A DNA stretch of 35,766 nt from Colwellia sp. GTDB lineage: Bacteria > Pseudomonadota > Gammaproteobacteria > Enterobacterales > Alteromonadaceae. The position numbers and the translations under genes were made by a program. Shown one piece after another: positions 1 through 22,170 of this stretch. Position 1 is the first letter of the stretch. Each line of letters opens with the position of its first letter. The stretch is taken from positions 1 to 35,766 of the forward strand of contig JAPHTO010000042.1 in NCBI GenBank assembly GCA_026196955.1, given 5' to 3'. The notes under the pieces were generated by a model. That model ran no database searches. It was not told the DNA's origin and worked only from the letters and a program-made list of their open reading frames with translations.

Positions 1-740
1 AAGGCATTAACCGTTGATAGGTATCGATTTGTTGGTTGTCTGATTAACTCAGCAACCGTGCCTGTTTCGTGAATATATTCTAGGTATTTTCCATCTGCGA
101 CTAAGTTAAATCCACCGACCCGAGTTACTTGGGTATTTTTGCGTTCGCCATTAGCCAACACGACTTCGCGATTGAAAGTGTGAATTTTGCCACTTTGCGT
201 CATTTCACGTTGTAGTTCAAACCATAAGCGCTCTATTTCTTCAATAGAAGCTAATTTGCTGCTAGCGCCTATGCTCTGTGCAAATTCATCTAAAAATTCG
301 CCACGATTAGGTATTTGCGCTGAAATCACTGAGGTTTGAAATTTACTACGCGTATCGCCCGAAACTTGCTGTAAAACACCAAATAGCTCTTTCAACTCAC
401 CCAGACGTTTATCTAATGCATCAGCTCTATTGGCTAGTTGCACCTCGTTATCCGCAAAAGTTTGTTCTAGTTGAGTGCTTAACTTAATGGCTGAATCTCT
501 TTGGTTTTTTACATCATTAAGCAATGATTGCTGCTGACTAACTTTCGCTTTAAATTCAGCTTCTCTTGCTTGATTTTGTTTAGATTGCGCTATTTTACCT
601 TGTTCAAGCTGGCTTAATAATTCATCTAAGTTGCTTGCCTGTTGCGCCATGCTCACACCAGTAAACAGTGTGAAAGAAAGTGCTACTGCTTTCATTGCTA
701 ATTTGCAGTGTTGGTTAAACGTTTTATTTATAATAGTCAT
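1..740 (-). CDS. TtpC/ExbB-like proton channel family protein, N-terminal part (cut by window edge)
   Basis: The visible part is the N-terminal 246 residues of a protein running off the left edge. It begins with a signal peptide (hydrophobic segment VALSFTLFTGVSMA, cleavage expected near MAQQ) and continues as a charged, coiled-coil-rich periplasmic region of about 110 residues, then a mixed region with GGFNLVADGKYLEYI. This is the layout of TtpC, the extended MotA/TolQ/ExbB-family protein of TonB2-type systems, whose TolQ-like membrane helices come later and lie outside the window. It starts 13 bp after the DUF3450 stop codon, in the same direction, so the two are one operon. By family precedent exbB, exbD, tonB and a TPR protein would follow. 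Role: energising TonB-dependent transport from the inner membrane. The identity is inferred from N-terminal layout and context, because the diagnostic membrane helices are not visible. Confidence 0.78.
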   Translation of the reverse strand, partial: MTIINKTFNQHCKLAMKAVALSFTLFTGVSMAQQASNLDELLSQLEQGKIAQSKQNQAREAEFKAKVSQQQSLLNDVKNQRDSAIKLSTQLEQTFADNEVQLANRADALDKRLGELKELFGVLQQVSGDTRSKFQTSVISAQIPNRGEFLDEFAQSIGASSKLASIEEIERLWFELQREMTQSGKIHTFNREVVLANGERKNTQVTRVGGFNLVADGKYLEYIHETGTVAELIRQPTNRYLSTVNA

Positions 741-753
741 GATGGATACTCTG

Positions 754-1551
754 CTATAGCTCAGTTTGGGTATTGGTCAATGGCACCATAATGAGATCAG
801 GTGCTAATTGCTTACGGGCAATACGAAGTGCTTTGTTAATACCTAAGCGGTAATCTTGAGAAAGTGATTGCCATTGACCACTTGTTTGATCCCAATGACC
901 TAAACGACTGCCATCACGCGTTTGGTAAATAAAACTCACTCTGCCTACACGTAAAAAATCAACATCCATTTGTTGACCTTCAACGGTTAGCAATCCGCTG
1001 TATGCTTCGATTGTTCTACCGTAGTCAACTTCGACTTGATAAGCCTCTAAGACACGACGAAATTTTTCAGATACAGAGATATCAGCTCGAGTCATCATCT
1101 CATTTAAATCATTCACTCGCTTATTACGCTCTTCTCCCAAAAAAGGAACGTCGAGCTGAACGAAGTTTTCTAATGTAGAAATCATACGTGCCATTAATGG
1201 CGAGATTTGGCGTTCAATGATGCTTACTTCTTCCATTGATCTAGCTAATTGAGCTAATTCTGATACTTGATTATCAAGCTGAGATTGCATTTGTTGGTTA
1301 TATACATTTAATCCGTCTAACTCTTTAGTAACCGCATTAAATTGTTGTAACTTTGTTTGAGCTTGCAGGGTAAAATCATTCACTTTTAATTGAGAATTTG
1401 CTGCAGATTCATTAATTTTTTGCCCGGCTATAACCACTTTTTCTAATTGCTGAGGTTGGCTTTGTGTATTAGCAAGTGCATTGATATGGTACAAACTACT
1501 TGTACTCACACTCAGTAATAAGCTTGCTTTGACAAGGTGTGATAACTTCAT
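754..1551 (-). CDS. DUF3450 family periplasmic protein of a TonB system
   Basis: A 265-residue protein with an N-terminal signal peptide (about residues 1-28, ending near NALA) followed by a long helical coiled-coil region (about 40-125) and a compact C-terminal domain ending in QLAPDLIMVPL. The pattern matches the DUF3450 family, which typically heads clusters encoding TtpC/ExbB, ExbB, ExbD, TonB and a TPR protein; its biochemical function is not established. Here it is the first gene of the operon, 13 bp ahead of the TtpC-like gene. An AGG-type ribosome-binding site precedes the ATG. Its promoter carries PhoB-like heptamers at 1607-1635, so expression is predicted to rise when phosphate is scarce. 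It probably works in the periplasm as an accessory of the TonB complex; that role is inference from context. Confidence 0.85.
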   Translation of the reverse strand: MKLSHLVKASLLLSVSTSSLYHINALANTQSQPQQLEKVVIAGQKINESAANSQLKVNDFTLQAQTKLQQFNAVTKELDGLNVYNQQMQSQLDNQVSELAQLARSMEEVSIIERQISPLMARMISTLENFVQLDVPFLGEERNKRVNDLNEMMTRADISVSEKFRRVLEAYQVEVDYGRTIEAYSGLLTVEGQQMDVDFLRVGRVSFIYQTRDGSRLGHWDQTSGQWQSLSQDYRLGINKALRIARKQLAPDLIMVPLTNTQTEL

Positions 1552-1590
1552 CGATTTACCTATTTCTTCTCATAAAAATAATTGAAATAA

Positions 1591-1635
1591 AGTCTACCGA
1601 GAAAATATGACACTTAAGTTATAGAAATATGACGG
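1591..1635 (-). promoter_or_regulatory. Predicted PhoB-dependent promoter of the DUF3450-TtpC operon
   Basis: Read on the minus strand, three 11-bp-phased heptamers are present: CCGTCAT (1635-1629), CTATAAC (1624-1618) and GTGTCAT (1613-1607). They are separated by the AT-rich spacers ATTT and TTAA. The first and third match the pho-box half site CTGTCAT at 6 of 7 positions; the middle one matches at 4. Exactly 10 bp after the last heptamer lies TAGACT (1596-1591), a plausible -10 hexamer, and no -35 is needed. This is the architecture of PhoB class promoters. The start codon is about 40 bp further on. The same arrangement precedes the lipoprotein operon at 8571-8648. Confidence 0.7.
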
Positions 1636-1932
1636 TTTTATTTCATCTTGTGAAACTTAAGATTCGGGGCATAGTAGAAATGAAGCATACTTCTCTTACA
1701 CGTTATTAACGCGTTTTTTGGCTATTTAACTGAATAATTTTTTATCCTCTAGCCTAAACTGATTAATCTAGTGTTCGTCTTCTAAGTAATGTTGAAAAGA
1801 GTTTTATTGGAAAAGAAATTGAAAAGCAACAGGATGAAGATTTAACGCTTAATATCAAGGCATTCAAGCTGTAATAGCTCATGTCTACTTGCTTGTGCTA
1901 AGTAGTGATTTGAAAGACTACAGAGATATAAT
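1636..1932. other. Intergenic region without a supported gene
   Basis: About 300 bp between the PhoB-like promoter and the methyltransferase gene. On the plus strand, 1767-1874 stays open for 35 sense codons and reads like protein (it includes EKSFIGKEIEKQQDEDLTLN) but has no usable start codon. It could be a decayed gene end or chance. No terminator or RNA was recognised here. Confidence 0.5.
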
Positions 1933-2583
1933 CTAGCGAATAAACTTAAGTATGTGCCCTTTGAACTCTTGCTCGAGATACGCGGTATTAATGGGTACTT
2001 GTTGAGAAGATGTAAAGCCGAAGCTTAGCATTCGAGCATTTAGTTTATTTTTTCTGCCGCGCCCTGGATCAACAATAATGACTTCGCAAACTGGCTTCGC
2101 ATGCGCTTCAATAAAAGAAGCCAGTAACTCAATATGCTCATCCTCATACAAGAGGTCGCTGCCAATAATCAAATCAAAAAGGCCAAGCGTATCATTGGTA
2201 TCAGCCCAACCTGTTCGCTCAAAGGCAATAGTGCTATCTTCATTAATTGAGGTATTGCGTTGCAAGAACTTTTTCACTTCGGGATGATAATCCGTTGCCG
2301 TAATGTCAGCACCTTGCTTGTTTAAGAGCAAACTAGACAGCGCTATGCCGCATCCAATTTCTAGTATTCGTTTTGAACTGGTATCGTAGTCAAAAATATA
2401 GTGTGCAAGCACTAAACTCGATGGCCAAATTACACCAAATAGGGACCAAGATGCTGAGCATATACCGAGTTTTTCGGCATTACCAGAGGGATCATAAAAC
2501 TCTTGTTTGTCGCGCAAAGTGCACAAATGGATATCAGTTTTACCAAACTCAACAGTTTGGTAGCTTAAGCGTAGGTTTGTCAT
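1933..2583 (-). CDS. Class I SAM-dependent methyltransferase, METTL21/Methyltransf_16-like
   Basis: A 216-residue cytosolic protein with the Rossmann methyltransferase signatures: motif I ILEIGCGIALSSLLL (about residues 74-88), an acidic ribose-binding loop ATDYHPEV (about 95-102), and motif IV DLIIGSDLLYEDEH (about 137-150). The SDLLYE motif after a GCGIAL motif I is typical of the METTL21-like lysine-methyltransferase group (Methyltransf_16), whose bacterial members are mostly uncharacterised. The N-terminal part contains ASWSLFGVIWPSSLVLAHYI, matching the W-P-S-LAHY pre-motif region of that group. It is flanked by intergenic regions of about 300 bp on both sides, so it is probably a single transcription unit although it sits between the two TonB-related operons. 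The substrate cannot be told from sequence; a protein lysine is the family-based guess. Confidence 0.82.
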   Translation of the reverse strand: MTNLRLSYQTVEFGKTDIHLCTLRDKQEFYDPSGNAEKLGICSASWSLFGVIWPSSLVLAHYIFDYDTSSKRILEIGCGIALSSLLLNKQGADITATDYHPEVKKFLQRNTSINEDSTIAFERTGWADTNDTLGLFDLIIGSDLLYEDEHIELLASFIEAHAKPVCEVIIVDPGRGRKNKLNARMLSFGFTSSQQVPINTAYLEQEFKGHILKFIR

Positions 2584-2592
2584 TGGGCGAAC

Positions 2593-2730
2593 TCAATATT
2601 GGGTTGCAGAGCCAACTATCGACGATAGATAAATGACAAAACGAGAATGTCTACCCAGCATATAGCATTCAGCTAATAAGGCAATGTATTTAACGAAATG
2701 ATTACGGCGCAGGAAAATAGCCAGCATCAT
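2593..2730 (-). other. Possible small ORF upstream of the methyltransferase gene (doubtful)
   Basis: A minus-strand frame opens with ATG-ATG at 2730 and runs 45 codons (begins MMLAIFLRRNHFVKYIALL) to a TGA at 2593, 9 bp before the methyltransferase start. No ribosome-binding site is visible. It has an amphipathic, basic, hydrophobic composition, but AT-rich spacer can give this by chance. It may be the leader region of the methyltransferase transcript rather than a gene. The rest of the 2584-2838 spacer shows nothing recognisable. Confidence 0.15.
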
Positions 2731-2838
2731 TTTGCTGAATATTGACGTCAATTTGATGGTTCAGAATACAAACTCAGATAGTAGCCGCCATATACAATAA
2801 TGGGCATAATCCTTTAAACTCCCTATGCGAGAGGAAAT

Positions 2839-2870
2839 AAAAAGACTTGGGGTTACCCGCAAGTCTTTTT
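2839..2870 (-). terminator. Intrinsic terminator after the TonB-dependent receptor gene
   Basis: A perfect 11-bp inverted repeat, AAAAAGACTTG and CAAGTCTTTTT, flanks a loop that can itself pair (GGG-TTA-CCC). On the minus strand the stem ends in CTTTTT followed by ATTT. It lies 35 bp past the receptor stop codon. Confidence 0.85.
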
Positions 2871-2904
2871 CTTTTTAAGCCGCTATATTATGGTTAATGT
2901 AGCG

Positions 2905-5571
2905 TTAGAAATCCCACTTTAAAGCCACTTCAAAGCGAGTTCCCTTGGTTTTACTCTGCAATAAAGTATCTTCAAACTCTAGCTCTTTATCTTCACCTAG
3001 CATGTTTTGTACTTTAAAGGTTAAGGTGGAAGAGAACGTTGGATAATAGGTATACACCATATCTAATGAGTGGAATGGTTGCTCGTAAGCATCCCCTTTG
3101 CCTTCAATACCCGGTACTATGATACGTTCACCAAATACATTGTAAGCTAAGGTTGCGCTATGATTACCATTAGGTGCATCCCAACCTAGATTGAAATTAA
3201 GCACGTATTCTGAATGCCCTGTCATTCGACGCGTTGGATTGGTTATACTGGTAGAAACGCCTGTTTGCTCAACAACCCGTTGTGTATCAATATTTATTTC
3301 AGAGTCACTTAGTGTGATGTTTCCAGACAAGAAAAAATCTGCGCCATTTATAGCGCCCAAGTCACCTAAGAACGTGAAGTCTTTTAAGAATTCCATTTCT
3401 ATACCATAAACATAACCATCTTCAGCATTAGCAATTCGTATGAGCGGCGGACCATCTTGTGACGGCGATTGCACTGCTTCAATTGGCATATCCATGTCTT
3501 TATAGAATAAACCAACAGACAAGTTTTCGCCTGTCTCCATATACCATTCCCAACGTAAATCATAGTTGGTGATGTCAGTGCTTTCTACGCCCGGCGTACC
3601 ACCAATAGGAAACCCTGTTAATGGGTCAATATAGGTTGCAGGTGCCACTTCACGCAGATCTGGCCTGATAGTTGTTTGACCAACAGTTGCGCGGAATTGC
3701 ATTTCCTCACTTAACACATAAGTAATTGCTAACGCGCCAAAGAAGTCATCTTCTTTAAACGTTAAATCAGCTAAGTCATCTTCCGTTGGTACGGCTGGTA
3801 AGTCAAACTTGCCTGTTGCTGGATCTAATGGTGCAACAACTTGTCTAAAGTCTTCCCAACGTACGCCACCCGTTAAGCGCCATGTATTGTCAAAGAAGAA
3901 ATCAGCTTCAACATAGTAAGCATCAACCATTTGACCTGAATAATAATCATCACCGGCAACTGACGTGTCGCGCATAATAATTTCATTGCCTCTTAATGGC
4001 TGATTTAACATCACATCATCAGTTAAAATACTGTTTAACTGATGGCCTGATAAATCTAAGTCATTAAAGGCTAGTGTATTAATATCAAGTCGTCGTGCAA
4101 ATGCTTCACGTGATTTTTTGATGAAATTACCACCAAATTTCAACTCTACTTCTGCGCTGTCTAAAGTGAAAGGTAGAGACATGTTATAACCATAGTTTTC
4201 AACTTCATCATCAAGATCTTGAAAACTATACCGTGTTGCAGTGGTCGCTTTTCTTAATGAGCTTTCATTTACATAGTCGAAAATGCCATCTTCAGGCTCT
4301 CCATTGTAACCATCAGCAACTATGTAACGTGTTTCAACATTGCCTGGTGCATAACGATTAGAGCGGGCATCTGAGTAGAACCAATCAACACCTAGCCCCC
4401 ACCAATCATTAAAGTTATGCGTGCCGCGAAGCTGATTAGAAATCATTTCCCGTTCTTCATAAATCACTTCCGTATCACGTACTCGCAAACCATCAGTGAT
4501 AGTAACGTTATTAGTGTTACCTCTTTTATCACTAATCTCATCTCGGGTGTCGTGCAAAATAAGTGAAGTGAAGTCTAGGCGGTGATCACGTCGATACTCT
4601 AACCCAAGGCTTAACATGCCAGAAAAACGCACAGAATGCTCTGTTGTTTCTACTTCATCAAAGCCGCGAACTAAAGACCAATTCCCCTCTGCGCCTTGCG
4701 TAAAGTCTTGCCCTTCATAGCCTTCTGATACTTCCCATTTATTGTCATATGAAACAGAAGAAAGAAATCCTAAACGAAAATCATCAAAATCAAACTTATT
4801 CCCTAACGTCAAATCTAAGCCTGTATTAGGGTTGATACTTTCACGTACTGGGTCATAATCTCGATTTAATTGCGCTGCAACTTGACGGTTATCTTCTTGG
4901 CCTAAATCATTAATAGCTGTGTAGCTATCCCATAACTTAGTTAAGTCACTTGGCGCTGCACGAGTACCATCATCAATTCCGTACCAGTCATCATCGCCAC
5001 CGCTATAGGTTAGCCCGTCATCAAAGTTATTGGTGTTACCACCAATTTTGCCTTTTACATTAAAAACAAAATCTGTCGGAATAGTTTTTAAACGTACATC
5101 AACATTACCGCCAGCAAAATGAGCAGGCATGCTGGGTGAATATGATTTTTGAACGGATAATGATTCAATAATACTTGATGGAAATAAATCCAAAGGAATG
5201 ACCGTTCTTGTTGGATCAGGGCTAGGTACAGCCGCACCATTTAATAGCGTGCTGGAAAAGCGCTCGCCTAAACCACGTACATAAATGAATTTACCATCGA
5301 CAAGTGTAATACCCGTAACACGACGAAGTGCTGCTGCTGCATCAGAATCACCTGTGCGAGATATTTGCTCTGCCCCTAAAATATCAGCAACAAACGCTTG
5401 GTTTTTACGCTCTTGCATTACAGCACTTGCTGTACCTTTTAAGCGACTCGCCTTAACCACTACTTCTTCCATGGCTTGGCTGTCATTTTCTTCTGCCACT
5501 ACTTGCCCTGTTGTTGCCATTACGGCAAGTGCTAGAGAAGATAAAGCAAAAGATGTAAACTTTTTATTCAT
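2905..5571 (-). CDS. TonB-dependent outer-membrane receptor
   Basis: An 888-residue outer-membrane transporter. The signal peptide is about residues 1-26 (MNKKFTSFALSSLALAVMAT..., cleavage near VVAEEN). A TonB-box-like segment (EEVVVKASRLKG) follows, then the plug domain (about 40-170) with GEQIS/LRRVTGI, VRGLGERFSSTLLNGA and GGNVDVRLKTIP, then a long beta-barrel of alternating aromatic strands. The protein ends in Phe (VALKWDF), as expected for BAM-dependent insertion. An ATG 12 bp upstream (5583) is in frame, but the GAGG inside that segment makes a proper ribosome-binding site for the ATG at 5571, so the shorter form is chosen. It lies downstream of the duplicated lipoprotein gene with a strong hairpin between them, and both should be transcribed from the PhoB-like promoter near 8571. 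The substrate is unknown; phosphate-linked regulation suggests a phosphorus-containing nutrient (inference). Confidence 0.93.
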   Translation of the reverse strand: MNKKFTSFALSSLALAVMATTGQVVAEENDSQAMEEVVVKASRLKGTASAVMQERKNQAFVADILGAEQISRTGDSDAAAALRRVTGITLVDGKFIYVRGLGERFSSTLLNGAAVPSPDPTRTVIPLDLFPSSIIESLSVQKSYSPSMPAHFAGGNVDVRLKTIPTDFVFNVKGKIGGNTNNFDDGLTYSGGDDDWYGIDDGTRAAPSDLTKLWDSYTAINDLGQEDNRQVAAQLNRDYDPVRESINPNTGLDLTLGNKFDFDDFRLGFLSSVSYDNKWEVSEGYEGQDFTQGAEGNWSLVRGFDEVETTEHSVRFSGMLSLGLEYRRDHRLDFTSLILHDTRDEISDKRGNTNNVTITDGLRVRDTEVIYEEREMISNQLRGTHNFNDWWGLGVDWFYSDARSNRYAPGNVETRYIVADGYNGEPEDGIFDYVNESSLRKATTATRYSFQDLDDEVENYGYNMSLPFTLDSAEVELKFGGNFIKKSREAFARRLDINTLAFNDLDLSGHQLNSILTDDVMLNQPLRGNEIIMRDTSVAGDDYYSGQMVDAYYVEADFFFDNTWRLTGGVRWEDFRQVVAPLDPATGKFDLPAVPTEDDLADLTFKEDDFFGALAITYVLSEEMQFRATVGQTTIRPDLREVAPATYIDPLTGFPIGGTPGVESTDITNYDLRWEWYMETGENLSVGLFYKDMDMPIEAVQSPSQDGPPLIRIANAEDGYVYGIEMEFLKDFTFLGDLGAINGADFFLSGNITLSDSEINIDTQRVVEQTGVSTSITNPTRRMTGHSEYVLNFNLGWDAPNGNHSATLAYNVFGERIIVPGIEGKGDAYEQPFHSLDMVYTYYPTFSSTLTFKVQNMLGEDKELEFEDTLLQSKTKGTRFEVALKWDF

Positions 5572-5603
5572 TGTAAACCTCATGAATTAGGTATTTGAAC
5601 ATT

Positions 5604-5642
5604 AAAATGCTGTAGTACCTTAAGCAGGCACTACAGCATTTT
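5604..5642 (-). terminator. Intercistronic hairpin between lipoprotein and receptor genes
   Basis: A perfect 13-bp inverted repeat (AAAATGCTGTAGT and ACTACAGCATTTT) with a 13-nt loop, 14 bp after the lipoprotein stop and 32 bp before the receptor start. The run of Ts after the stem is short, so it could be a leaky terminator that lowers receptor expression, or an mRNA-stabilising structure at the lipoprotein 3' end. Full termination would leave the receptor without an evident promoter. Confidence 0.7.
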
Positions 5643-5656
5643 GATTAGTTAAACTG

Positions 5657-8512
5657 TTACTCTAAACCTACAGTCCAACCAGCAGTCCAGTCATTGCTTT
5701 CCGTTACCGCACCAATGTGATTGGCATTGTCGAAGAAATCGCTACCTGTGAAGTCTTTCGCTGTTGTTGTATCGATAGTAAATACACCGTTTAGTACCGC
5801 ATTCATATCAACAGCAGTTGAGTTATCAGTATTTTGATTAAGCACCCAATCTTGTGTATCAAGTAATACTGAGCCATCTGAGGCTTTAGAATTTTTGAAG
5901 TTTTCGCTACACGCAAATACTGAGTGAGAAATCACAGTATCGCCTGCCACTGCTTGGTCAACCGTTATTGAAGAAGTATCGCCCCCCTCAATTTCAAAAC
6001 ACTCACCTGCAGCATTGGTTACAACAAAGTTATGAAGCTGTGCTTTAGTACCTTCACGTAAATAAACACCTTCACTGTCTTTATCAGCCGTATCAAAAGC
6101 ATTCCCTATGATGGTCATATTAGCGATTGTCGGGTTAGATTGCGGTTGTTTATTAGGTGTTGAGCCATCGTTGTCTGCTTCAATTGCACGGTTGGCTGCA
6201 CCATCGTTAGCATCATGCTTAACGAGTACATATTGCATGTTACCGCGGTAACCATTATCCCAATCGACACTGTCATCTTGGTTAGCCGTTAAAACAACAT
6301 ACTTAAGGTTTACTGTACCGCCAAAGAATTCAACACCATCGTCAGCATTTTCGTGCACTTGCAAGTACTCAACTTTAGTACCTGAGCCAACACCGCCAAA
6401 AGTAACACCATTTAACTCATTGTCTGGTGCAATTTCATAACCTGCATGCTTAACAACCACATAGCGCAACGTACCTGAGTTATCTTCATCGTTAGTACCA
6501 CCAAATACTGCCCCTTCTTCTACGCCTTCAACCTGCAGCGCACAATCAGAGCCATCTGACGGGCATTTGTTAGATTGAGCATTACCCAGAATAACGATAC
6601 CGCCCCATTGACCATGACCTGTTTCTTCACCGGTAATATCTTCACTTGATGTAAACGTGATTGGTGCAGTGTTACTACCTAGCGCTTCAATTTTTGAATC
6701 GCGGCTTACGACTAAGTAATCACCACCTGAGCGTCCAAAAATGGTTGTACCTGCTTCGATAGACAGAGTTGCGCTGTTCGCTTTGTCTTCACCAACAAAT
6801 ACCGGGCCATTTAAGGCGTATAAGTTATTAGACGTTAAGGTTAAATCACTGGTGATCTTCCCAGAAATTTCACATGTCGTCGTTGTACCATCAGCCGGTG
6901 TAATTGATGTTGTTCCAGTTGGGCAACCTTCAACTTCCGCTTGTGCCGTGACAATACCGCCACCAAAACCGAATGCCCAACCTTGACGCCAATCATTGCT
7001 GCCATCAAAGGCACCAATATAGTCAACAGTATCGAAGAAAGCGTCTTGTGTGCTTGCGACATCTTGACCTGCGCCAGCAGCAATTAATGGTGAATTTGCA
7101 TCTGGAACACCAGACTCGTTAATTAAAAGAGATGTTGAGATACTGTTTGATGGCTCAGCTGTAAACCAAGCAGCTAAATCAAGTAATACTGAGCCGTCAG
7201 CAGCTTTAGAATCTTTAAAATTTTCGCCATTTGAACAAGCCATAACCGAGTTTTGTATAACTATTTTACCGCTATTGGCGTTATCAACAGTAACAGAGGC
7301 CGTATCACCACCTTCAAACTCTAAACATTCACCCATTTCACTTGGGCCTGTTACCACAGTGTTGAAAATTTTAGCCGCTGTACCTTCACGAAGATAAATA
7401 CCTTCAGAGTCTTTATCTGCGGTATTAAAGTTATTACCAATGATGGTCATGTTAGACAAGGTAGGGTTTGATTGTGGCTCTTTCGCTGGGTTTGAGCCAT
7501 CGTTATCAGCCTCGATAGCACGGTTAGCAATACCCGCATTTTTAGCATGTTCAATATAGATATGTTGCAGCTTGCCTTTATAACCGTTATCCCAATCAAC
7601 ACTGTCATCTTGGTTTGCTGTTAACACTAAATGCTTAATGCTAGCGGCACCACCAAAGAACTCAACACCGTCATCAGCATTTGAGTGGACTTGAATGTAA
7701 TCAAGGGTAGTACCTGAGCCCACACCACCAAAGGTAATACCGTTTAATTCATTATCAGGGGCAATTTCATAACCCGCGTACTTAACAACAACATATTTAA
7801 GCACACCTGAGTTATCTTCAAAATCAGTACCACCAAAGACCGCACCTTCTGCTACACCTTCAACTTGCAGCGCACAATCACTTCCATCAGTTGGACACTT
7901 ATTAGAAGGTGCATTACCTAAAATTACTACGCCACCCCATTGACCAGCATCAGTCGCTTCGCCTTTAACATCCTGTAAAGAGGTCATGATAATTGGTTGA
8001 GCTTTTGTGCCTTCCGCCATGATTTGTGCATCACGGTGAACCACTAAGTAATCATTTCCTGATTGACCAAATAACACAGTGCCCGGCTCTATCGTTAATA
8101 CAACATCACCTACGTTACGTGCTTGCTTGTTTGCAGATGAGCCGCCAACTTCTAAGCCACCACTTATCGCATACATTACTGGCTTGCCGTTGCTATCTTT
8201 AGCAACTAAGGTAGTGTTTTGTGAAATTTTTGTATCAAGCACTTGTACTTGCACGTCAAAGCCCATTGCCGCTGACACTTGCGTACTTAACGCTGAATTT
8301 GACTTACCGGCTAAAACCGTTGCATCAGGTGTCGTTGGCGTAGTAGGTGCTGGGTTATTGATAACCGTATCACCTACAGAGTTATCAACATCAGACGCTA
8401 AATTTATATCGCCTCCACAAGCGGCAAGGCCAATAGACAGAGCGGCTACAATCGCTGCATTGGTAGTATTGTGTTTAAAAAGACTATTTAATTTTATGCT
8501 GTTCAATTTCAT
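5657..8512 (-). CDS. Large outer-membrane lipoprotein with a tandem-duplicated beta-helix-like domain
   Basis: A 951-residue lipoprotein. The signal is MKLNSIKLNSLFKHN then a hydrophobic stretch ending in the lipobox LAAC (Cys32), followed by a Pro/Thr-rich linker. The rest is two copies of one domain, about residues 113-513 and 565-946, at an offset of about 440-444 residues. Both copies carry the same blocks: SG-DYLVV-RD, GQWGG-VILGNA, a CX6C pair (NKCP-DGSDCALQVEGV), YEIAPDNELNG, ADDGVEFFGG, ANQDDSVDWDNGY and NRAIEADNDGS. The repeating short strands with G-N-D turns suggest a right-handed parallel beta-helix, a surface-ligand or polysaccharide-binding type of fold; I cannot assign an activity. 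The ATG at 8512 has GGAG upstream and gives a proper lipoprotein signal; an in-frame ATG 60 bp upstream would spoil it. It is the first gene before the TonB receptor and probably its surface partner. Confidence 0.82.
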   Translation of the reverse strand: MKLNSIKLNSLFKHNTTNAAIVAALSIGLAACGGDINLASDVDNSVGDTVINNPAPTTPTTPDATVLAGKSNSALSTQVSAAMGFDVQVQVLDTKISQNTTLVAKDSNGKPVMYAISGGLEVGGSSANKQARNVGDVVLTIEPGTVLFGQSGNDYLVVHRDAQIMAEGTKAQPIIMTSLQDVKGEATDAGQWGGVVILGNAPSNKCPTDGSDCALQVEGVAEGAVFGGTDFEDNSGVLKYVVVKYAGYEIAPDNELNGITFGGVGSGTTLDYIQVHSNADDGVEFFGGAASIKHLVLTANQDDSVDWDNGYKGKLQHIYIEHAKNAGIANRAIEADNDGSNPAKEPQSNPTLSNMTIIGNNFNTADKDSEGIYLREGTAAKIFNTVVTGPSEMGECLEFEGGDTASVTVDNANSGKIVIQNSVMACSNGENFKDSKAADGSVLLDLAAWFTAEPSNSISTSLLINESGVPDANSPLIAAGAGQDVASTQDAFFDTVDYIGAFDGSNDWRQGWAFGFGGGIVTAQAEVEGCPTGTTSITPADGTTTTCEISGKITSDLTLTSNNLYALNGPVFVGEDKANSATLSIEAGTTIFGRSGGDYLVVSRDSKIEALGSNTAPITFTSSEDITGEETGHGQWGGIVILGNAQSNKCPSDGSDCALQVEGVEEGAVFGGTNDEDNSGTLRYVVVKHAGYEIAPDNELNGVTFGGVGSGTKVEYLQVHENADDGVEFFGGTVNLKYVVLTANQDDSVDWDNGYRGNMQYVLVKHDANDGAANRAIEADNDGSTPNKQPQSNPTIANMTIIGNAFDTADKDSEGVYLREGTKAQLHNFVVTNAAGECFEIEGGDTSSITVDQAVAGDTVISHSVFACSENFKNSKASDGSVLLDTQDWVLNQNTDNSTAVDMNAVLNGVFTIDTTTAKDFTGSDFFDNANHIGAVTESNDWTAGWTVGLE

Positions 8513-8570
8513 GTGTATTTTGCTCCGAAGAGTTGGTTGTTTTAATAAAGAATTAATAAATTTTGACCAC

Positions 8571-8648
8571 ATGCTACAAGAGAAAAATGACAGAAATGTT
8601 TTAGAAATATGACCCTTTCTTGACGGTAATATGTCACTTTAGTGACAA
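8571..8648 (-). promoter_or_regulatory. Predicted PhoB-dependent promoter with six phased pho-box heptamers
   Basis: On the minus strand, heptamers start every 11 bp: TTGTCAC (8648), GTGACAT (8637), CCGTCAA (8626), GGGTCAT (8615), CTAAAAC (8604) and CTGTCAT (8593). All have AT-rich 4-bp spacers after them. Five of the six match CTGTCAT at 5 or more positions, and the last is perfect. Ten bp after it lies TAGCAT (8576-8571) as -10. Transcription should start near 8564, about 50 nt ahead of the lipoprotein ATG. The 16-bp palindrome TGTCACTTTAGTGACA (8632-8647) falls on the two most upstream heptamers. Confidence 0.75.
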
Positions 8649-20840: not shown

Positions 20841-21686
20841 TTACATAGCACTTTTGTCGTCTTTATGACTAGCTCGCTCATTGTAACGTGCTGAAATCAC
20901 GTTAATATCAGCAAGCGATTCAATATTATTTTGCAATTGCTCTTCGAGCTGATCAATTTTAACCGCTGAAAGGCACAGTTGCTCAGCTTTATGTTCAATT
21001 TTTTCTGCTCGAGATTCCATTTCATGTTCAATGCTTTCGCCAAAATTTTCCATGCGCGTTTCAAAAGCGTCACTATCACCGCCTGAGAATATCATTTCTT
21101 GACCAACGGCTACCATGATACTTCCCATCGAACTCATCACTGCTTTTTCTACTGCCGATTCGATGCGTTGCTCAAAATCGTCTCCAAGCAAGTCATTATT
21201 TTTAAGGCCATCTTCACCGATAGTAAAGCCATGCTCAAGTGTAAAGCGTGTTGAAACTTCATCACGAAGGTTTGTTAGCTCACGAGTTAAATCAGCACTA
21301 ACATCATTTCCCTCGCCTAATAGCTCATTAAAAGCCAAATTTACTCCCTCTACAGCCAAATCTACACCTTCAATAGCAACAGTTCTTACTTCAGGCACCA
21401 TGGCTTTAATACTTGCTGAATATTGACTCACCAAAGCTTGCTGCTCATCGTTTAAATCAACTGCTTGTCCCGCGACAAATAAAGATTCATCGTTATCTAT
21501 TCTATATAAAATATCTTTGTTTTTTTCGTTGAAAAACTCGATGCTATTCTTGCTAATATTAACCCCTGCTTCTAACTCAACATCGCAAGAGTTATGTGCC
21601 ATGACACTGGCTGAAGATAATGTTGCCAATAAAGTCACCGCTAACAGTGATTTTTTGAAGGTATTAGGTGTTTGTTTAGCTTTCAT
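20841..21686 (-). CDS. DUF2884 / YggN-like periplasmic protein
   Basis: A 281-residue exported protein. The signal peptide is about residues 1-30 (KSLLAVTLLATLSSASVMA, cleavage before HNSCD). The mature protein has the DUF2884/YggN pattern: CDVELEAGVNISKNSIEF at the start, a central helical region with VEGVNLAFNELLGEG, and a C-terminal part with QLCLSAVKIDQLEEQLQNNI. Two cysteines (CDVE and QLCLS) are likely disulfide-bonded. Function is unknown in the family. A good AAGGAAAG ribosome-binding site precedes the ATG. It is a single gene with its own terminator. Confidence 0.88.
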   Translation of the reverse strand: MKAKQTPNTFKKSLLAVTLLATLSSASVMAHNSCDVELEAGVNISKNSIEFFNEKNKDILYRIDNDESLFVAGQAVDLNDEQQALVSQYSASIKAMVPEVRTVAIEGVDLAVEGVNLAFNELLGEGNDVSADLTRELTNLRDEVSTRFTLEHGFTIGEDGLKNNDLLGDDFEQRIESAVEKAVMSSMGSIMVAVGQEMIFSGGDSDAFETRMENFGESIEHEMESRAEKIEHKAEQLCLSAVKIDQLEEQLQNNIESLADINVISARYNERASHKDDKSAM

Positions 21687-22170
21687 TGCGCTTTCCTTGT
21701 TGTTAATCTTTTATGTTATCGCTATCACTCATAGAAATTCAATAGCCGTTGTTACAATCGTAATAGTTACAAAAGCGATGCCAACTTTATTTCCCTTTAA
21801 TTTCAATGCAATAGCAAAACACTCTTATTATCCAAACAAAGCTATTGTTATTTTTTAGTAAAATTTACCAAATAGTAGTGCATTATTTATAGTACAACGA
21901 GGAGTATCAATTTTGCATTTCAAATAAACATGGTTGCAAGGCTGACATTTTAAAAGCAATAAACCGCCTCGATTCATCGGTGTATGTAAATAGACGCGTA
22001 ATACATACAGCGATTATGGGGCTGCTTTTATTGCTAGTTGGTAATTTTACTGATTAGAAGGTAGTGACGATGTCGTCATAACAACAAGTGATTGTTTTTC
22101 ACAAAGCACTTGTTGTAGAAATCATTGCAGGTATTGCTCAAGTAAAAAATTAATTCAGGATAATTACTCG
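21687..22170. other. 484-bp intergenic region with an orphan open frame
   Basis: The region holds the upstream sequence of the yggN-like gene and a plus-strand frame, 21893-22057, open for 54 sense codons after an upstream TAG. It reads CISNKHGCKADILKAINRLD then a basic and hydrophobic end. GAGGAG at 21899-21904 resembles a ribosome-binding site, but the only candidate near it is ATT at 21917; the first ATG leaves 13 codons. It could be a decayed gene or a gene with a non-standard start. A perfect hairpin lies at 22081-22116. No RNA family was recognised. Confidence 0.35.
22081..22116. repeat. Perfect inverted repeat downstream of dbpA
   Basis: ACAACAAGTG (22081-22090) and CACTTGTTGT (22107-22116) form a perfect 10-bp stem with a 16-nt loop, 55 bp after the dbpA stop. 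It lacks a T-run on either strand, so terminator function is doubtful. The arm sequence AACAAGTGAT recurs in the hairpin at 19856-19903. Confidence 0.5.

Follow-up and report, generated by a model that had tools for sequence, protein, structure and literature searches.

An ElpS-type lipoprotein, its TonB-dependent receptor and a TonB2-type energiser behind Pho-box-like promoters in Colwellia sp.

In Caulobacter crescentus, the lipoprotein ElpS (CC0170) is produced under phosphate starvation and exposed at the cell surface, and the genes CC0170-CC0171 are followed by type II secretion genes. Overproduction of ElpS raised phosphatase activity in culture supernatants, ElpS itself showing none, and loss of elpS left phosphatase activity unchanged; CC0171 was reported as constitutive by RT-PCR, with data not shown in the source (PMC2996285). 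A comparable pair is known from Flavobacterium johnsoniae, where the receptor Fjoh_0545 (FC 8.02) and the lipoprotein Fjoh_0546 (FC 9.91), related by the authors to the Caulobacter protein, are induced in low phosphate, while OprP (FC −1.3) and PhoR (0.76) of the same phoBR locus show no significant change. The authors report that the low-phosphate TonB receptors of this species respond to phosphate depletion only, low iron and low nitrogen having served as controls; genes of the sigma and FecR-like kinds are present in further loci induced by low phosphate (PMC8115612).

TonB-related proteins are linked to phosphate in further organisms. TonB receptors belong to the Pho regulon of Caulobacter (PMC11208175), Pseudomonas aeruginosa has a PhoB-linked exbB2D2-tonB4 set and a PhoB-linked receptor-like signalling protein, VreA (PMC4971064), and the PhoB response of Bacteroides fragilis includes an ExbB-type gene (PMC3547664). 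The view, taken in an earlier note on this DNA, of a Pho response that does without TonB transport is thus outdated by work on Caulobacter, Flavobacterium and P. aeruginosa (PMC11208175, PMC8115612, PMC4971064). As for energisers, TtpB and TtpD are essential for TonB2-driven siderophore uptake in Vibrio vulnificus, whose TtpB/TtpC system has a Fur site and a role in iron supply (PMC6957404). Neither a Pho-controlled TtpB/TtpC system nor the Alteromonadales cluster described below was found in the literature, as searched by titles and abstract beginnings among the matches listed, without most subscription journals and bioRxiv; the available portions of PMC7029141 and PMC3400609 held nothing bearing on the cluster.

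The window, that is the whole stretch of 35,766 nucleotides analysed here, is contig C68 of a draft Colwellia genome, and its position 1 is a contig end. All genes claimed earlier for its first 8,648 positions are present on the minus strand (Table 1), transcribed in the order lipoprotein, receptor, methyltransferase, DUF3450 and the first part of TtpC.

Table 1 Features of the cluster at the start of the window
Feature	Position	Strand	Remarks
TtpC, N-terminal part	1..740	-	contig end cuts gene; 54% identity to L058 TtpC residues 13-236
DUF3450 protein = TtpB	754..1551	-	PF11932 E=8.6e-85; first gene of TonB2-type energiser operon
Pho-box-like stretch, ttpB operon	1607..1646	-	two overlapping sites, score 19.2
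Methyltransferase	1933..2583	-	PF10294; sits between both operons
TonB-dependent receptor	2905..5583	-	barrel PF00593 E=1.7e-22, plug PF07715 E=2.2e-9
ElpS-type lipoprotein, two predicted beta-helix domains	5657..8572	-	likely real start 8512
Pho-box-like stretch, lipoprotein-receptor operon	8587..8648	-	overlapping sites, scores 20.2, 17.3, 15.8

Neither the receptor gene nor the methyltransferase gene has a Pho-box-like site of its own (best upstream scores −8.7 and −5.4, respectively), so the receptor is probably transcribed with the lipoprotein, as second gene of its operon. The methyltransferase probably stands outside the uptake system. The energiser is split over two contigs of this genome: the end of C157 (3,220 bases) encodes the part matching residues 254-453 of the L058 TtpC (69% identity), and after it come ExbB, ExbD and TonB, named from their translations.

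Pho-box-like sites were scored with a matrix of 14 training sites from pstS-type, pit and porin-phoB promoters, from which the lipoprotein and DUF3450 promoters were excluded. The training sites were best consensus matches of at least 14 of 21 before pstS-type genes, with pit and porin-phoB added; L143 (14) was omitted without reason and L130 entered in two registers. Four of the 14 come from this genome, which has strong Pho-box-like sites on C87 (upstream of a DUF47-pit pair), C56 (upstream of pstS) and C150 (upstream of a porin with a PhoB-like gene), its pit, porin and PhoB being named by eye. On C150, as in L128, the porin gene with its Pho-box-like site lies directly before the PhoB-like response regulator (both named by eye), and this porin is a candidate phosphate porin of the genome.

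At scores of at least 15, both strands of the window hold six sites, five of them in the two promoter stretches of Table 1; since these five overlap in two stretches, they are not five independent matches. The count of six was reached in 0/300 dinucleotide shuffles (mean 0.077, maximum 2), as were the observed counts at 17 and 19, and the single site at 20 was equalled in 1/300. With a matrix lacking the training sites of this genome, a site outside both promoters, at 21778, ranks fourth. This sixth site (21778-21806, minus strand, score 15.6) lies just upstream of a DUF2884 gene (20841-21686). The lipoprotein stretch consists of six units in a single 11-bp register (TTGTCAC, GTGACAT, CCGTCAA, GGGTCAT, CTAAAAC and CTGTCAT), and the ttpB stretch, ending 55 bp upstream of the ATG, of four (ATGAAAT, CCGTCAT, CTATAAC and GTGTCAT), again in one 11-bp register. 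Upstream direct repeats of the CTGTCAT type with 11-bp spacing, a trait of the PhoB regulon, are present at both promoters. The earlier reading that both operons appear to be under PhoB stands as regards PhoB-type promoter sites, from which PhoB-dependent expression would follow.

The same matrix was applied to relatives, with two controls: the 95th percentile (4.48) of 795 neighbouring upstream regions, some with starts inside operons, and a stricter set of 359 upstream regions whose preceding 120 bp are free of genes. DUF3450 has 40 members here, one of which lies too close to the end of its locus for scoring; the upstream regions of all other 39 are above the 95th percentile in either control. 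For the lipoprotein family, 54/81 regions pass the first control and 46/81 the stricter one. Alteromonadales, by which we mean loci L039-L096, L104 and L111, including L086 of Endozoicomonas, contribute 53/60 and 46/60 of these, 14/60 failing the stricter control; among the other 21 family members, one passes the first control and none the stricter. The stricter 99th percentile is passed by 19/81 lipoprotein and 18/39 DUF3450 regions. Lipoprotein regions of Haliea/Halieaceae (6/6) and Bacteroidetes (10/10) fail the first control, perhaps because the receptor comes first there or because control differs. As a positive control, 28/30 phoB upstream regions pass the first threshold. These counts are uncorrected and, as the species share ancestry, not independent.

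Copies of DUF3450 differ in this respect. PF11932 gave 45 matches in 20 genomes, and 31/45 upstream regions were scored. The best copy per genome, chosen by Pfam score and in some cases (L218, L225) not adjoining the pair, scores at least 8.9 in 19/20 genomes, the exception being L221 (−6.1). Second copies that have a locus (n = 10) range from −7.1 to 5.2, with −1.2 for the copy on C109 of this genome; two of them (4.6 and 5.2) slightly exceed the first control's 95th percentile of 4.48. The comparison is one of plain counts; a rank test was set aside because L221 had been grouped with the second copies in it once its score was known.

Gene linkage in relatives points in the same direction. 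The receptor follows the lipoprotein within 400 bp in 58/60 Alteromonadales loci, at 706 bp in one, and one locus is cut. Where the locus extends at least 6 kb upstream (58 loci), phoB and phoR were found in 30 and phoB, phoR and pstS in 28, phoB lying 2.3-6.0 kb upstream of the lipoprotein in all 30; it is absent from the other 28, including every Colwellia and Shewanella locus tested, and in the present genome the PhoB-like gene (by eye) is on another contig, C150. DUF3450 and TtpC are present in 40/55 loci with at least 6 kb downstream, two of the 40 having DUF3450 upstream of the lipoprotein. The order in L058 reads phoB-phoR-pstS-lipoprotein-receptor-ttpB-ttpC-exbB-exbD-tonB-TPR; in this one locus tested, the PhoB (TIGR02154), PhoR (TIGR02966) and PstS-family (TIGR02136) models score above cut-off. 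In Bacteroidetes (n = 10, one locus incomplete), a PiT-type permease was found near the pair in 6/10 loci and an OprP-type porin in 4/10, these families being confirmed by Pfam in L109 only. No phosphatase was recognised by eye in the 45 largest neighbour clusters; with PstS, PiT and OprP, all concerned with inorganic phosphate, as neighbours, the substrate could be bound phosphate or a compound that is cleaved by Pho enzymes from other loci. In 12 loci (L051, L056, L057, L059, L061, L065, L075, L076, L077, L080, L087 and L094) members of one gene cluster stand directly before the lipoprotein; the single member tested (L065) is a 2OG-Fe(II) oxygenase (PF13640).

These data bear on the reading that the Pho-box-like sites arise by chance or serve another OmpR-type regulator, in a system importing iron or carbon. 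Direct repeats with comparable spacing are bound by regulators of the OmpR family. In V. vulnificus, TtpB and TtpC belong to a system with a Fur site that works in iron supply (PMC6957404). This reading sits poorly with the shuffles, none of which reached the observed count at 15, with the low scores of second ttpB copies, with the phoBR-pstS linkage in relatives and with the F. johnsoniae low-phosphate TonB receptors, reported as induced in phosphate depletion only (PMC8115612); we regard it as highly improbable.

The pair itself has counterparts beyond the Alteromonadales. In Sphingomonas parapaucimobilis and Indioceanicola profundi, type II secretion genes come after a homologous pair, as in Caulobacter; the window pair shares 33-39% identity with these lipoproteins and 28% with the receptors, over 877-908 positions. 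The Sphingomonas receptor retrieves the window receptor from this genome with 6.6e-67 (next receptor 9.1e-8), and a flavobacterial partner receptor likewise finds it best (4.7e-22 versus 2.9e-8). Type II secretion genes are not beside the pair in the window. They were found beside homologous pairs in 5/21 loci examined (L188 and L191 by annotation; L193, L199 and L203 by tblastn), L200 giving a single GspE-like match only, and are treated here as a lineage mark that an ElpS-type pair does not require. Judged from synteny, the published description and homologues, the window pair probably belongs with ElpS-CC0171. In both, the lipoprotein adjoins a TonB receptor, and the Caulobacter lipoprotein is made in phosphate starvation; the window differs in its two-domain lipoprotein and in having an energiser operon nearby instead of type II secretion genes, and CC0171 is reported as constitutive.

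With Fjoh_0545/0546 (lipoprotein FII; PUSIV or phoBR operon), likewise judged from description and homologues, the locus has in common the receptor-lipoprotein pair and, in its relatives, the linkage to phoBR; the Flavobacterium pair is strongly induced in low phosphate, and a further likeness is that Fjoh_0546 carries IPR011050, the pectin-lyase fold. The Flavobacterium order is receptor then lipoprotein, however, and the Bacteroidetes lipoproteins are shorter. PUMA3 of P. aeruginosa (vreAIR; exbB2D2-tonB4) is likewise a gammaproteobacterial TonB energiser tied to phosphate and PhoB, but it uses an ECF sigma factor, and an ElpS-type pair was not seen in the part of its description at hand.

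The lipoprotein has 971 residues, a lipobox LAAC with Gly at +2, and an internal duplication with 248/424 aligned positions identical (58%, E=3e-171). Translation probably begins at the ATG at 8512, as GGAG stands before it and relatives (e.g., L045) begin at the corresponding site. The nearest named relatives are in a Colwellia MAG (88%) and Litorilituus (82%). No match was obtained in Pfam or NCBIfam, nor in PDB sequences at E up to 10. The AlphaFold model (40 sequences, mean pLDDT 86.2, pTM 0.57) has a disordered part (residues 1-83) and two strand-rich domains (about residues 85-545 and 546-971), both of which are read as beta-helices; in view of the pTM, their relative placement is uncertain. 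The mature chain is acidic (pI 4.1, computed charge −81), a property that hardly points to bare phosphate being bound directly. Acidic residues D300, D301, E304, D322, D323 and D326 are near-invariant in domain 1, and their motifs recur in domain 2.

A SusC/D-like division of labour had been proposed for the pair. SusD is helical and BtuG a beta-propeller. What the window locus shares with the SusCD and BtuBG systems of Bacteroidetes is the pairing of a lipoprotein with a TonB receptor; its lipoprotein is a beta-helix in the model and matches no SusD family, so that membership in the SusC/D group is not upheld. A SusD-type lipoprotein was ruled out by the modelled fold and by the Pfam and NCBIfam searches.

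Lipoprotein relatives vary in length, from 338-678 residues in Bacteroidetes and about 510-630 in many open frames outside the family to 1,361-1,386 in six genomes of the family and 1,366 in a frame of Pseudoalteromonas shioyasakiensis. Lipoproteins of about 1,370 residues, in L190 (12004-16104) and the six genomes, apparently consist of three units of the same domain, which suggests that its copy number changes. Two short relatives lie near ExbB/ExbD-like matches in a Sulfurovum MAG (L113), where a receptor match was not found.

It is possible, though we hold it for the less probable course, that the lipoprotein acts chiefly as an enzyme or activates a secreted phosphatase, phosphate being freed outside the cell, and that the receptor imports the product or serves otherwise. 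ElpS was proposed as such an activator, in line with the effect of its overproduction on supernatant phosphatase activity in Caulobacter (PMC2996285). A Foldseek search with the model returned, as top matches, beta-helix enzymes that act on glycans, with PL6 alginate lyases and hydrolases among them (best E=4.4e-5), and the nearly invariant acidic residues of domain 1, repeated as motifs in domain 2, would suit an enzyme. TM scores of the eight matches with E up to 0.001 are nevertheless low (0.13-0.19), in part because the model has two domains; the matches may be generic for beta-helices. The near-constant pairing with the receptor favours a joint role of both proteins.

That the receptor is a surface sensor signalling phosphorus availability, and not a transporter, appears very unlikely. 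The possibility was considered in the ElpS paper (PMC2996285), and precedents exist in the PhoB-linked VreA of P. aeruginosa (PMC4971064) and in the sigma and FecR-like genes of other F. johnsoniae low-phosphate loci (PMC8115612). The window receptor, however, matches plug and barrel only, a signalling domain being absent among its Pfam matches, inspection by eye of the 45 largest neighbour clusters brought up no sigma or anti-sigma gene, and an energiser with a similar promoter site adjoins it. It had no PDB sequence match at E up to 0.001.

The energiser is of the TonB2 type. The order DUF3450-TtpC-ExbB-ExbD-TonB-TPR is present in L058 and in two annotated Pseudoalteromonas records, which label the final gene 'hypothetical', and a second such set lies on contig C109 of this genome, its small genes named from translations. 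By gene position, the TPR gene corresponds to TtpD. The earlier note had left the role of DUF3450 open; it can be narrowed, as the protein is TtpB, a component that the V. vulnificus TonB2 system needs (PMC6957404). Both systems share gene kinds and order, from DUF3450 (TtpB) through TtpC, ExbB, ExbD and TonB to TtpD, whereas the operon in Vibrio carries a Fur site and acts in siderophore uptake and the window copy has a Pho-box-like site and, in relatives, phosphate genes as neighbours. The best Fur-consensus matches before DUF3450 reach 10-13 of 19 whichever kind of copy is taken, and the Fur test does not tell the two apart. The comparison suggests that TonB2/TtpC copies specialise by nutrient.

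Overall, we favour, with a probability of roughly 0.7, a PhoB-controlled lipoprotein-receptor pair that, together with a TonB2-type energiser, captures or processes a phosphorus source at the cell surface and imports it in a TonB-driven manner. Under phosphate scarcity, PhoB would activate two transcription units, one for the ElpS-type outer-membrane lipoprotein and its partner TonB-dependent receptor and another for the TtpB-TtpC-ExbB-ExbD-TonB-TtpD energiser. The lipoprotein, presumably exposed at the cell surface, would catch or process the phosphorus source with its two acidic beta-helix domains and hand it to the receptor, which would import it, powered by the TonB2-type set; in the periplasm, PstS or other Pho-regulon proteins would take over. 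The promoter sites, the pairing and the gene linkage are directly readable from the sequence; we infer that PhoB drives expression, that the lipoprotein faces outwards as reported for ElpS in Caulobacter and passes its ligand on, which way transport runs, that the receptor draws on this energiser, and what kind of substrate is moved.

The phosphate-linked TonB system with a paired lipoprotein, as initially proposed, is thus supported by the Pho boxes, the phoBR-pstS linkage and the low-phosphate relatives in two other groups. What the locus adds to the known systems is the duplication within its lipoprotein, an energiser of the TonB2 type that has a Pho-box-like promoter to itself and, in Alteromonadaceae, linkage to phoBR-pstS. 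More tentatively, one might imagine a widespread outer-membrane phosphorus route common to Gammaproteobacteria, Alphaproteobacteria and Bacteroidetes, in which a modular beta-helix lipoprotein of one to three units would form a capture and cutting head for polymeric phosphorus and feed its partner receptor; in Alteromonadales the drive would come from a TonB2 motor of its own, under phosphate control and encoded alongside the phosphate sensor.

Growth is phosphorus-limited in some regions of the sea, and little is known of how bacteria bring large or scarce compounds of phosphorus through the outer membrane. A lipoprotein family that is a strong low-phosphate product is now tied to a receptor, an energiser and phosphate sensor genes in a single cluster. 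As this cluster is present in named Alteromonas strains, a search for the substrate by gene removal is feasible.
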